Shown here: positions 18,300 through 22,295 of the stretch, piece by piece | How the letters are laid out: every line of letters starts with the position of its first letter | Numbering within the stretch: the stretch's first letter is position 1 | Assembly: GCF_025567045.1 (NCBI RefSeq) | Contig: NZ_JAOQJK010000002.1 | Coordinates: 473,901-537,900, forward strand | DNA: 64,000 nucleotides | Reading direction: 5' to 3' | Source of the DNA: Barnesiella propionica | GTDB lineage: Bacteria > Bacteroidota > Bacteroidia > Bacteroidales > Barnesiellaceae | Notes under the pieces: model-generated | The model's input: the letters and a program-made list of their open reading frames with translations, nothing else | Told to the model about the DNA's origin: nothing | The model's database searches: none | Position numbers and translations under genes: made by a program

Positions 18300-21248
18300 C
18301 TACTTTTTCAGTATAACCCTATATCCAAAAATTCCGGAAGACGAATAAATCTTTATAAAATATAAGCCATCGATAAAACCAGACATATCAATCTCATAAG
18401 GTTCTAATATATGTTTTCTCATCATTAAATGCCCTTCCATATTAAAGACTTCAACATCGCTTACAATCATATCATTTTTAACCGCAATATACACAATTGA
18501 ATTCGTTGGATTAGGATAAATTTTTATATCAGGATCCATTTCTATTTTCGGTGTTAAACTCGCAAGGCTAAATAAACTTGCCGGAGGAGCTAAAGATTTA
18601 TCGGAACACGGTACAATTTCCGCACGAAATGACACTCCTTTTTTAATATGTGTACCTGGGCCTAAAATGATTTGTTTATAGGCTTCCAGATGATAATCTC
18701 CAGAATTCAATATAAGGGAATCGACATCAATCGTCCCCAGTCCTACCTCTTTTAATACATTATTCTTTAGATTATCTTTTTCCACCAAATAACAAGGAGA
18801 TAAAGAAGAACCTTTATAAGAACCATCACAATCTGCAACAATTATTACTTCAGAATCGACTTTCCCTTCACCATTTACATTAAAACCAGTACCAGAAGTT
18901 GGAGCAATCCGTACACAATTTTTACCATAGTCCCATCTATTATATCTACCCGGGTAAGCTTTTATTTTTATCGTATGAACTCCTGGAGTAGTTAGCTTAA
19001 ATCCACGAAAACCTTTAGGTGTATAATATGTGCCCGGAACTATATCAGAATATTTAAATGTAGTCTTATATTTCTCTTCTTTTAAGAGTATTTTATCCAT
19101 CATAAATTGTAAAGCCCCTACACCTTCTTGTGGATAATAATTATAATTATATGCTGGAGAACAATATACATAGTAATCATAACAGCCCTGCTTAATATAT
19201 GAATGATCTTCAGTCACCATATCTATTTTTTCTTTAATCCAGACTGTATCTCCAAGAGCAAATTTTTTTCTATTTTGGTATAATTCGCTCGTAACTTTAA
19301 AACACTCAGACGGTATTTTATAATCAATATCAAGAACAGTCCAATTTTGTGTTTTTTTAATTACCGGATTTTCATATCCATTGGATTCCATATAAACTTC
19401 TAATGTAAATAAATACGATCCCTCTTGCGTAAGTGAAAACCTCTGATCGAGCAAATTAAAAAATGAAACAGAAGCTGTACGACTATCCAAAACTTTCGAA
19501 TACTTTGTATAACAATAAACAGAAGCAGTATCATCTTCAAAATAATAATGCCCTCTAATCCAATCGTCAGGAAATTTATTTACTTTAAATTTCCACATTA
19601 TATTCTCTCCTGCAACAGGTAAATTAGAAACTGCAGCTGATATTGTTAAATTATCATAAGTCCTCAATCTGTAATCATCTCCGCTATCATAATCACCAAA
19701 GTTCCTGCCAGAGATTGTAAACGTTAACTGCATTCTATCATCAGGAATTGAAGGATCTACAGGATCAGTATATACATATGACTCACTATCATTTATAAAT
19801 AAATAATTAGTCATAAAAGGCAGATCTTTAGCTGTAGAAAGTTTACTATACAAAGTCTGAAATAAGTCTTTATTGGAATTACAATTTACAGGAGTTTTAT
19901 ATCCGCCACGACATATCCCTATTACTTTATGATTATAATTAAATAAAGGTGAACCTGATGATCCCTCTTCTGCTTTAAAGCCTGCAGTAGAAAGCACTTC
20001 CCAATGATCATTTCCACTTATAAAGTTTCCATCATTCCATCCAACTGATTTGGCTGCTTTTTCACTCAAAAATACCTTCTTAACATCACCTTTAGGATGA
20101 TGAATCCCTACTAAAGGGCGCAAAGAATTGCCTGGTTCGATAAACAGTTCGGTAAAATCGTATCCGGCAAAAGCTACATCGTACTTAGATATATCTTTCA
20201 CCGTATTATTTAATTCCAAAAGAAGAATATCATTATTGCTGTAAGATAAATTATCTTTTCTTGATAAAATACTTGCTCCTAATGCCGATTTTGTCGTACT
20301 TTTGCTAATATCCGAACCGTCACTGTTGCAAGAGGTCGCTTCATGCCTGAAAAGAAAAAGCCAATTCTTTACATCCGATAATGTTCCGTTTTCATGCTCA
20401 TAACAATGATTTGCCGTAAAAAGAAACGGTTTTTTATTAAATACGTAATTATTCCCATCATTCACCAATACTCCGGAACATACTCCCCAATAATCGGAAT
20501 AGGAATGATCTCTTTCTAATATCAATACCGTCGATTTAACTTCAATATCAAATTTATTATCTTTCAAGCACGATGTATTAATATGGCATTGTGCAGAACC
20601 TTCGGAACTAAAAGGGCCTTTATATTCAATAAAACAATCACTAAATATATAGACTACTTTATTAATATATAACTGTGCTTTTTCCATATTGACCGGAGCC
20701 GTATATTCAACATATACACTATTACCATTTATATTTTGAGTTAAAAAGGTACTATCTATTCTATTATTCTCATCAGTAAACGATCCTAAAACCATAGATC
20801 TATCTTCATTATATATAAATAAGCTCCCTCCCTTGGGAATACAAAATTTACTGAAGATCAATTGATAACCCTTTGCTTTTTCAGATTCAAGTTTTAACAA
20901 CCATAATTTTTTTCCGTCATTAATTTCATATTCTTGCGCTAAATCAAAAAAGTCAATATCAACAACTACTTCTTTTCCATAATAAAACTGATTATAACAA
21001 CCGCTACACGAGTTTTTTATATCGTCTAATTCTTTTTTAATGTCATTAAGATCAAGATCTTTTATCTTATAAGACTCAACATATTTTTTCTCGGACTTAA
21101 TGCCTTTAAGCGATAATGAAGCGAAAAATGAATAAGGTTTTCCGCCATAACTAACTTGAGCCATTATATGACCCGGCAAAAGACAAATAAATAAAATTAA
21201 TAAATAGAATACTGATCTATTCATCATTGAAGCATAGTGTGATTTCAT
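18300..21248 (-). CDS. Secreted lysyl-endopeptidase-like serine protease, T9SS cargo
   Basis: About 982 residues. A signal peptide ending near HIMAQ is followed by a pro-region and a trypsin-like domain of the lysyl endopeptidase type: His in FTANHCYEH, Asp in NNDILLLELN and Ser in EEGSSGSPLF. Two or more beta-sandwich regions follow (PKD/Ig-like), and the last 80 or so residues are a type A sorting domain (KIYPNPTNS, then DGLYFIKIYSSSG). It should be secreted through the type IX system. The frame opens 13 codons earlier, at 21287; the ATG at 21248 is chosen because it gives a shorter signal-peptide n-region, and the ATGs at 21227 and 21224 are also possible. Confidence 0.85.
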   Translation of the reverse strand: MKSHYASMMNRSVFYLLILFICLLPGHIMAQVSYGGKPYSFFASLSLKGIKSEKKYVESYKIKDLDLNDIKKELDDIKNSCSGCYNQFYYGKEVVVDIDFFDLAQEYEINDGKKLWLLKLESEKAKGYQLIFSKFCIPKGGSLFIYNEDRSMVLGSFTDENNRIDSTFLTQNINGNSVYVEYTAPVNMEKAQLYINKVVYIFSDCFIEYKGPFSSEGSAQCHINTSCLKDNKFDIEVKSTVLILERDHSYSDYWGVCSGVLVNDGNNYVFNKKPFLFTANHCYEHENGTLSDVKNWLFLFRHEATSCNSDGSDISKSTTKSALGASILSRKDNLSYSNNDILLLELNNTVKDISKYDVAFAGYDFTELFIEPGNSLRPLVGIHHPKGDVKKVFLSEKAAKSVGWNDGNFISGNDHWEVLSTAGFKAEEGSSGSPLFNYNHKVIGICRGGYKTPVNCNSNKDLFQTLYSKLSTAKDLPFMTNYLFINDSESYVYTDPVDPSIPDDRMQLTFTISGRNFGDYDSGDDYRLRTYDNLTISAAVSNLPVAGENIMWKFKVNKFPDDWIRGHYYFEDDTASVYCYTKYSKVLDSRTASVSFFNLLDQRFSLTQEGSYLFTLEVYMESNGYENPVIKKTQNWTVLDIDYKIPSECFKVTSELYQNRKKFALGDTVWIKEKIDMVTEDHSYIKQGCYDYYVYCSPAYNYNYYPQEGVGALQFMMDKILLKEEKYKTTFKYSDIVPGTYYTPKGFRGFKLTTPGVHTIKIKAYPGRYNRWDYGKNCVRIAPTSGTGFNVNGEGKVDSEVIIVADCDGSYKGSSLSPCYLVEKDNLKNNVLKEVGLGTIDVDSLILNSGDYHLEAYKQIILGPGTHIKKGVSFRAEIVPCSDKSLAPPASLFSLASLTPKIEMDPDIKIYPNPTNSIVYIAVKNDMIVSDVEVFNMEGHLMMRKHILEPYEIDMSGFIDGLYFIKIYSSSGIFGYRVILKK

Positions 21249-21501
21249 AGTAATATGTGATAAATTATTTTTTGTAAACATAACCAATATTTTAATAAAT
21301 ACAAAAAATATGACTTAATTAATTTATCAATCAATATTTAAATTAATAAAATTATTATATATAAAATTTATATAATCTATAGATTTTAAAATATCAAAAT
21401 AATAAAGGTAAAATATTTTGGAGCCATTTTTCTATACACTTATTTTAGAGCCTGTAATTGGTTTGTAGATATACTATTCTTTAGGTTAAACCATTCGCTA
21501 A

Positions 21502-21527
21502 AATTGTTTTTCCTATGAAAAACAATT
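21502..21527 (+). promoter_or_regulatory. 11-bp palindrome overlapping a -33 element
   Basis: Perfect inverted repeat with arms 21502-21512 and 21517-21527 and a 4-base centre. The right arm overlaps the TTG of the promoter for the RNA below, so it is in the position of an operator. A hairpin in RNA coming from upstream is the alternative. Confidence 0.4.
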
Positions 21528-21556
21528 GCATATAGAAATAAATTACGTATTTTTGC
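21526..21556 (+). promoter_or_regulatory. Strong promoter of the structured RNA
   Basis: TTG at 21526-21528, a 19-bp spacer, then a perfect -7 box TATTTTTGC at 21548-21556. Transcription should begin a few bases later, at or just inside the first arm of the RNA structure. Confidence 0.75.
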
Positions 21557-21559
21557 ATC

Positions 21560-21690
21560 GTAAAACATTTGAGATGCGCAATTAAATGTGTCGAGTGAGA
21601 GGTAAAAACAGTTAGCCTCCGCCGATGCACATTTTATTTGTGTATCTCGTTCAAATGTTTTACACCCTAAAGAACGGCGGAGGCTCTATA
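21560..21690 (+). ncRNA. Candidate structured RNA, 6S-like rod or switching leader
   Basis: The region has no coding frame and is dense in base pairing. Fold 1 is a rod 104 nt long: 21560-21570 with 21653-21663 (11 bp), 21571-21577 with 21642-21648 (7 bp, one G-U), 21584-21590 with 21628-21634 (7 bp), 21591-21593 with 21623-21625, and 21599-21602 with 21616-21619, closed by a 13-nt loop. Fold 2 competes: 21614-21624 pairs with 21675-21685 (11 bp, GC-rich), with a hairpin 21624-21631/21639-21646. The 5' arm lies just where the promoter should start transcription. The rod with internal loops is reminiscent of 6S RNA, of which a Bacteroidetes class (6S-Flavo) is known. A leader for the gene at 21716 is the other reading. 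The class is unproven. Confidence 0.55.
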
Positions 21691-21715
21691 TATTTATTTG
21701 ATTAAAAACTATGTG

Positions 21716-22135
21716 ATGAGATTAAATTCACACATGAGACATTTATGTCATTATTCGTCGTTTAGTATAACATTACACCATATACGAAAGTTTATCCATA
21801 ACCATCATTATAGGAAACGATATCCCGGAATTTTAAAAAATACATTTGCAGACAAGTCTATAATTCATATGATTGAATTTTATAATGAGGAAAAAATGCA
21901 TTCTCTTATTCATTTCGATCATCATTCCTGTATAATATATGAAACAGAATTTATTCATCAAGTAATTTCATCACTACCTGAAGAAGAGCAAAAAATAATC
22001 ATACTTTTTCTCAATGGATATATTACTGAAGATATAGCTGATTTGTTGAAACTTCCCAACCACATTATTCAATTTAAACTTTACAGAATTCATAAGCAAT
22101 TTAAGAATAAATATCGCCCGCAAAAATCAAAATAG
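21716..22135 (+). CDS. Small protein with sigma-70 region-4-like helix-turn-helix
   Basis: 139 residues. The C-terminal part (about 78-135) reads like sigma region 4 of ECF factors: ISSLPEEEQKIIILFLNG, then TEDIADLLKLP and FKLYRIHKQFKNKY. The N-terminal 75 residues are basic and His-rich and show no region 2, so it is not a full sigma factor. It could be a regulator that meets RNA polymerase or DNA, or a remnant of an ECF gene. The longest frame starts with TTG at 21698; the ATG at 21716 is preferred. It sits 31 bp after the structured RNA and ends before a 17-bp hairpin. Confidence 0.6.
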   Translation: MRLNSHMRHLCHYSSFSITLHHIRKFIHNHHYRKRYPGILKNTFADKSIIHMIEFYNEEKMHSLIHFDHHSCIIYETEFIHQVISSLPEEEQKIIILFLNGYITEDIADLLKLPNHIIQFKLYRIHKQFKNKYRPQKSK

Positions 22136-22192
22136 GCGTAATAACATTTTATAATATTAAAATTCGTATACCCCGCAAGAATTATTGAAATT

Positions 22193-22235
22193 GTAGTTTG
22201 GTTCTGATTCCTCTACAAAATCAGAACCAAACTAC
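22193..22235 (+). terminator. 17-bp hairpin after the sigma-like gene
   Basis: Perfect arms 22193-22209 and 22219-22235 with a 9-base loop. The T-rich part (22251-22256) is not immediately adjacent, so the terminator call rests on stem length and position. Confidence 0.65.
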
Positions 22236-22295
22236 AGCTTTTGAAATAGTTTTTCCTTAGGTCCCTGAAACAAAAGTCAATAAAAGCTATAAAAT

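Follow-up and report, generated by a model that had tools for sequence, protein, structure and literature searches.

The window analysed here is a stretch of 64,000 nucleotides (nt) from the genome of Barnesiella propionica (contig NZ_JAOQJK010000002.1, positions 473,901 to 537,900), in which a promoter, a highly structured leader and a gene for a short sigma-factor-like protein lie one behind the other, as listed below.

21502 to 21527, no strand assigned: candidate operator, a perfect 11-bp inverted repeat (AATTGTTTTTC/GAAAAACAATT) with a 4-nt spacer, overlapping the -33 box (inverted-repeat search; putative function)
21526 to 21556, plus strand: Bacteroidetes-type promoter TTG-N19-TATTTTTGC (exact pattern match)
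21560 to 21663, plus strand: rod-shaped fold (state 1), which starts at the predicted transcription start and lies within the best match in the window of the covariance model R3 described below (folding)
21614 to 21624, plus strand: 5' arm of helix B, AGCCTCCGCCG, of which 21615 to 21624 are also paired in the upper stems of the rod
21675 to 21685, plus strand: 3' arm of helix B, CGGCGGAGGCT, terminator-like in most relatives and here followed by CTATATATTTATTT
21716 to 22135, plus strand: gene for a 139-aa protein with sigma-70 region 4 only (Pfam, ECF profile matches, AlphaFold2/Foldseek)

On the minus strand, 18300 to 21287 encodes a 995-aa protein with a match to a trypsin-like peptidase and a Por secretion C-terminal sorting domain. 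A perfect 18-bp hairpin (TGTAGTTTGGTTCTGATT/AATCAGAACCAAACTACA, 22192-22236), noticed by eye 3' of the sigma4-like gene, is perhaps the terminator of that gene. By its FeoB, which reaches 77% identity, the host is closest to Barnesiella and Coprobacter; a conserved position of the element beside FeoB/tRNA-Cys was considered and rejected, as the Barnesiella loci have tRNA-Cys there, but no trace of the element by blastn. A first-pass annotation of this DNA had described the promoter as perfect, and it is indeed present as TTG-N19-TATTTTTGC at 21526-21556, with the start of the RNA predicted at about 21557-21561. The strict promoter pattern has 2 matches in the 64 kb against 0.40 expected (at least two occurred in 8 of 100 shuffles), the second being located on the minus strand at 22459-22429, immediately upstream of the tRNA-Cys gene. 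The inverted repeat at 21502-21527 resembles the binding site of a dimeric regulator, which would act on the adjoining promoter as its operator.

The rod comprises the first 104 nt of the predicted RNA (21560-21663), as had been noted before, and its outer arms (21560-21572/21651-21663) form 13 bp without a flaw. The minimum free energy (MFE) of 21561-21700 is -43.2 kcal/mol, with a z-score of -4.9, and none of 200 shuffled sequences folded as low. The alternative pairing that the annotation had also pointed out, 21614-21624 with 21675-21685, is likewise real, with 11 bp and no mismatch; we call it helix B, and forcing it in the window costs 11.8 kcal/mol. The arms follow each other in the order A-B-A'-B', as had been stated, and the two helices cannot coexist as nested folds. 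This order had been read as either a pseudoknot or a mutually exclusive switch, of which the switch is the better reading, since the linker of about 11 nt would be short for the height of the rod; on the same consideration of linker length a simultaneous pseudoknot is unlikely, and the computed energies are compatible with it. The leader had further been described as about 130 nt without a coding frame. In fact it holds a 26-codon ATG frame (21625-21705), and what stands of that description is that the frame is not conserved as a leader peptide: in the relative L115, introduced below, there is no ATG at this position and, by our own reading, the conserved GGCGGAGGC is read in another frame. 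In P0002, a protein 71% identical to the window protein, the small frame of the leader is fused to the protein, and our own comparison finds its 23 leader residues identical to those of the window, hence more conserved than the protein itself. Despite this identity we rejected the leader peptide, as L115 does not keep the frame intact over the conserved GGCGGAGGC; the conserved short ORF that marks leader-peptide attenuators is not present.

The ATG of the downstream gene lies 31 nt after the 3' arm of helix B. Its product matches the Pfam family Sigma70_r4_2 slightly under the gathering score (22.9 bits versus a cut-off of 25.7), and residues 18-132 align to positions 58-166 of the 175 positions of the ECF profile PRK12522 with 25.5 bits, versus a cut-off of 217. 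The protein does not qualify as an ECF sigma factor, as Pfam reports region 4 only and about 58 N-terminal profile positions are missing; by its sequence it looks like an N-truncated one. AlphaFold2 gave a low-quality model (mean pLDDT 55, below 50 for residues 1-63) that is confident in the C-terminal part only, and the top Foldseek matches are sigma region 4 with E-values of 0.028 and worse, none of the Foldseek matches reaching 0.001; we have therefore used only the region-4 fold of the model. A protein search with the window protein returned two relatives at an E-value of 0.001, 99% and 71% identical. Adding the Coprobacter secundus sequence extended the search to a set of distantly related short proteins and brought the total at an E-value of 1 to 16. 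A scan of the genome contigs with the window protein found nothing, and a search of 393 genomes of the order gave three ECF-type matches at an E-value of 1e-6.

To which class of RNA such a leader belongs had been left as a choice between a 6S-like RNA and a new leader element, with a search of Rfam including 6S-Flavo proposed as the check. No Rfam 15 family lies over the element at its gathering score or at an E-value of 0.1 or less in the window and 15 related loci, phage type included. The best sub-threshold match over the window element is mir-2566 (21 bits versus a cut-off of 86, E 0.31), and a mir-1252 match in L275 (E 0.069) falls outside the element. 6S RNA has a large central bubble that mimics an open promoter. 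For a 6S-type RNA that binds RNA polymerase one could cite that a perfect promoter has its start site at the foot of a rod of about 104 nt, as well as the linkage to sigma-like genes; but the predicted folds have only small internal loops and no large central bubble, helix B has no counterpart in 6S RNA, and RF01685 (6S-Flavo) gives no match in 21300-21900 at an E-value of 10. This model exceeded its cut-off in none of 14 related genomes, and thus the hosts' own 6S RNA was likewise not located. With covariance-model support in neither the window nor its relatives, we reject the 6S reading as highly improbable; the leader half of the proposal is supported by the ORF spacing of 24-44 nt given below and the lack of an Rfam match.

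Through covariance-model and pattern searches we have assembled 50 copies of the element including that of the window, 46 of them distinct, of which 5 precede ECF sigma genes, 15 precede short sigma4-like or helix-turn-helix-like genes (hereafter sigma4-type leaders), and 30 come from phage-type loci. With the window RNA as its only sequence, the model R1 found one relative in the 393 genomes of the order, L115, with 41 bits, in the genome to which the Coprobacter secundus locus L011 also belongs. About 32 nt after the helix B 3' arm of L115, an ORF starts that encodes 139 aa with sigma region 4. Another candidate from this search, L116, was taken as a chance hairpin. A two-sequence model (R2), run with filters off on 20 loci encoding sigma-like matches, then revealed five ECF sigma genes in Coprobacter relatives that are immediately preceded by this architecture, one in each of the five genomes covered for that family, the weakest copy (L231, E 0.45) being accepted on inspection. 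One of these loci (L242, genome G074) has a stop codon within the matching part of its ECF frame, through either a sequencing error or pseudogene formation. By sequence likeness, a rubrerythrin-like gene adjoins the ECF gene in all five loci and a PerR-like gene comes next in four, the exception being L240; in L238 the best NCBIfam matches are rubrerythrin and PerR, both below the curated cut-offs. For B. thetaiotaomicron, PMC12596196 assigns PerR (BT0215) and rubrerythrin (BT0216) to a single regulon.

A third model, R3, was built from the five ECF leaders only, with the window excluded. Within the window it scored highest at 21556-21691 (28.8 bits, E 5.9e-5), well ahead of a second match with 14.7 bits, and it also recovered L115. 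At an E-value of 0.01, R3 had matches in 14 of the 393 genomes, comprising the five training genomes, four accepted on inspection (G289, G397, G343 and G102) and five rejected (G157, G083, G075, G360 and G331). With laxer filters and E-values up to 1, 16 of 22 chosen genomes matched, which added copies in seven of nine Barnesiella-family genomes, all with promoter, rod and helix B arms. These seven were accepted on inspection of those features and of the ORF, several at weak E-values (G009 5.7e-5, G012 0.014, G013 0.054, G014 0.12, G015 0.39, G010 0.55 and G008 0.81); an ORF of 113-120 aa was called behind six of them and none behind L267. L269, L277 and L279 were rejected as family members, four duplicates (L283, L290, L300 and L306) were dropped from the distinct set, and the census leaves out opposite-strand matches of known copies as well as about ten further weak matches.

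The association with a following gene is close. An ORF of at least 100 codons starts 24-44 nt after the 3' arm in 18 of the 19 gene-leading genome copies besides the window, and a same-strand gene lies directly downstream in 19 of all 20, L267 being the exception in both counts, as well as in the viral copies L291 and L302. When ten of the short proteins were compared with Pfam, sigma region 4 was seen in six (clearly over the cut-off in two, level with it in one and under it in three), and not in L259 and three Barnesiella-group proteins, so the label sigma4-like is backed by Pfam for only part of the leaders. The Barnesiella-group short genes (six of the seven, L267 left out of the table) are under purifying selection: of six pairs, four give a dN/dS of 0.09-0.18 and two are saturated. 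Four accepted copies in G289 (L249, L258, L262 and L263) each consist of the RNA and a short gene, which suggests a local expansion; the neighbours of L249 are presumably a DUF3990-like gene and a small HTH gene. One might take the window copy for a degenerate leftover, an attenuator before a decaying sigma pseudogene, given that its protein is N-truncated and its T run lost. Yet in P0002, 71% identical to the window protein, the frame is intact over its full length, and two copies in G289 have a dN/dS of 0.32, which together with the low values in the Barnesiella group leaves this reading only a slight chance. On the 5' side, TANNTTTG abuts the element in 45 of the 50 copies, a count in which TTTG, but not TA, was part of the search pattern behind the 27 viral copies. 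A TTG is located 18-22 nt before the -7 box in only 17 of 46 copies, so the -33 box is not general to the family.

As two copies lay in phage-like loci, we have searched viral contigs for the rod base, using the pattern TTTG-N4-6-TCTYACYTAC-N66-95-GTARGTRAGA, which does not demand helix B, the T run or the promoter TA and would miss phage copies with another rod base. It matched 27 stretches, all of which have TA-N2-TTTG and a helix B of 7-14 bp; a T run of at least four follows in 22 of the 23 distinct viral copies. Another pattern, GCCTCCGCC-N45-75-GGCGGAGGC, hit 95 stretches in viral contigs, which were taken uninspected for GC-rich chance matches. By blastn, the window region has no match among plasmids and phages, while one viral copy matched 22 phage records (ten named Bacteroides phage p00 and six named jmh.._hp) and four plasmid records. 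Bacteroides phage p00 is, we take it, the hankyphage. Its copy (BK010646.1, 40532-40663; L307, 2169-2300) lies, on the opposite strand, between the genes of a diversity-generating retroelement (DGR) and a small hypothetical gene that is followed by thymidylate synthase. The adjoining DGR genes encode a reverse transcriptase and what PV107404.1 names Avd; the element converges on the gene next to the reverse transcriptase. Across the 30 phage-type loci, duplicates included, a reverse-transcriptase-type neighbour is present in 16 (Pfam was run on one), and 19 have in common a divergent gene of about 80 codons that is helix-turn-helix-like by sub-threshold matches only. A lipoprotein-like gene stands behind the element in L291, L300, L306 and L302, three of which are identical at the element; two of these proteins gave no Pfam match, and no relatives of the short proteins were found in the viral contigs.

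These phage copies bear on an alternative in which the locus would exist to make the RNA, a noncoding transcript of about 130 nt that has a promoter and a terminator to itself and acts in trans, the genes behind some copies being expressed through read-through. No gene stands behind the p00 copy or behind the element in two inspected p00 relatives, and 19 of the 23 distinct viral copies have no ORF of at least 100 codons starting within 120 nt; these gene-less copies are the main argument for a trans RNA, and the T runs in nearly all viral copies agree with it. So does the rod base like TCTYACYTRC that is common to phage copies and Coprobacter- and Barnesiella-group leaders, a likeness partly built into the searches, since TCTYACYTAC was a requirement of the viral pattern and is also present in R3. 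The narrow 24-44 nt spacing to ECF genes, short genes and two lipoprotein-like genes speaks against it, as does the more frequent lack of a T run in sigma4-type leaders. We regard a purely trans-acting product as rather unlikely, bearing in mind that trans action and an attenuator are compatible.

The covariation of both folds, which had been set as a check on the first reading, is borne out across the family. In each copy the gapless rod base and helix B were picked as the best complementarity and pair by construction, hence it is the cross-class and shuffle controls that carry weight. A copy's own arms paired better than arms from another class in 89 of 90 comparisons for the rod base and 82 of 90 for helix B, and shuffled partners reached the own score in 9 and 5 of 2300 trials, respectively. 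In 45 of the 46 distinct copies (L275 dropped), columns 1 and 4-10 of helix B each show at least two Watson-Crick pair types, and across classes pairing is kept through U-A to C-G, C-G to G-C and G-C to A-U changes. Furthermore, when 20 of the 26 distinct phage-type copies (L250, L291, L295, L296, L302 and L304 left out) are aligned with MAFFT on sequence alone, 94.8% of the cells pair and 10 of 24 pairs change on both sides; the covariation score was reached by none of 500 shuffles, and sliding the partner by 1-3 columns lowered pairing to 37-47%. The count of further pair types was reached by 8 of 500 shuffles in this 24-pair alignment, and by 362 of 500 for helix B together with a third helix, P3, expected in state 2. 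For P3, own arms won 58 of 90 cross comparisons and 466 of 2300 shuffles reached the own score; within phages 75% of its cells pair and three of eight pairs change on both sides, and the window allows only a few pairs. P3 is thus suggestive in phages and weak overall. The family and its two folds, on the other hand, are well supported. Might the palindrome instead be conserved as DNA, as an operator pair or an invertible or mobile repeat? Its perfect 13-bp inverted arms and the several copies in G289 and in phages would suit such a role, but the element keeps a fixed place and orientation after TANNTTTG, its T runs are confined to one strand, it is present in a single copy in the window, and both of two mutually incompatible helices covary, so that we give a DNA-level role very little credence.

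The energetics are uniform. Helix B is absent from the MFE fold in all 46 distinct copies, the MFE structures inspected being rods, and its imposition takes 4.8-31.6 kcal/mol (median 14.1). Folded by itself, with the 5' strand left out, the 3' half adopts helix B in 41 of 46, which is how one would expect a switch to behave if it were operated by a holder of the 5' strand. A T run of at least four follows helix B in 36 of 46 copies, namely 5 of 5 ECF leaders, 25 of 26 phage-type copies and 6 of 15 sigma4-type leaders, the window and L115 being among the nine sigma4-type leaders without one.

The two folds, their covariation, the position of the promoter, the gene association and the energetics were all computed; transcription, termination by helix B, the direction of the switch and its signal we infer. 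Our preferred interpretation, which we hold to be probable by a modest measure, is a bistable leader of the terminator/antiterminator type, in which the 5' strand of the rod decides whether a terminator-like hairpin forms. The base of the rod would be where transcription starts. The 5' and 3' strands would be paired with each other in state 1, locking the arm AGCCTCCGCCG inside the rod, and the polymerase would read on; in state 2, with the 5' strand unavailable, AGCCTCCGCCG would pair with the downstream CGGCGGAGGCT, and helix B, together with the T run of most relatives, would act like an intrinsic terminator and stop transcription of the sigma or sigma4-like gene. As state 1 locks the helix B arm and state 2 frees it, the 5' strand of about 50 nt would serve as the antiterminator, and a factor capturing or displacing it would turn the downstream gene off. 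The window copy, missing the T run, is probably a leaky terminator, with high read-through or a changed output. The evidence supports the proposal of a new leader element that would control the region-4-like gene downstream. Several points count against an attenuator: attenuation in cis leaves the 19 viral copies with no nearby ORF unexplained, the T run is missing in the window, L115 and the other sigma4-type leaders that make up the nine, and P3 is weak. In addition, the rod would be complete before the 3' arm of helix B is made, so that without a trigger helix B should rarely form, which counts against the switch as well.

A broader and more tentative idea, to which we attach about as little probability as to the trans-acting product, is that of a portable RNA switch common to Bacteroidales and their phages, in which host copies would gate sigma or sigma4-like regulators, phage copies would flip the host switch in trans, and the short sigma4-like proteins would be dedicated RNA partners and not sigma factors. 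The trans effect might come about through pairing with the 5' strand of the host leader or through titration of a common rod-binding factor; in many phage copies the rod base is like that of the Coprobacter- and Barnesiella-group leaders. A concrete question follows: can RNA from a phage reset the switch of its host via a common sequence? Apart from this, the work describes a family of RNAs to which no Rfam 15 model corresponds and whose two incompatible folds both covary. The family ties together ECF sigma genes beside rubrerythrin, short proteins with region-4- or helix-turn-helix-like ends, and gut phages such as the hankyphage. No report of this RNA was found in the literature searched. 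We conclude that it is a new family of probable attenuator-type leaders with an unusual host-phage distribution, new relative to Rfam 15 and that literature, with the Bacteroides-2 motif, which has no Rfam number in Table 1 of PMC2864571 and its consensus in an additional file, standing outside the comparison.

Among known systems, the terminator/antiterminator attenuators, such as those of trp, the T-box and the transcriptional riboswitches, come closest, having in common with the element a promoter, a leader, two mutually exclusive helices (both covarying here), a T run in most copies and a gene. They differ in that the antiterminator here is a near-complete rod from about +1, with no conserved leader peptide, no known ligand or tRNA site, and many phage copies without a gene behind. 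6S and 6S-Flavo RNAs resemble the element as rods of about 105 nt from their own promoter, whereas the element is unmatched by RF01685, has a competing 3' helix and leads sigma-like genes. The put antitermination RNAs of HK022 are likewise structured RNAs at the very start of a transcript with a link to phages, but here the structure competes with a terminator-like helix. Finally, the DGR template RNA of the hankyphage, as described in PMC6199706 and PMC12135933, comes from the same phage neighbourhood; its template repeat is annotated about 2 kb from the element on the other strand, and the listed neighbours of the chromosomal leaders include no reverse transcriptase.
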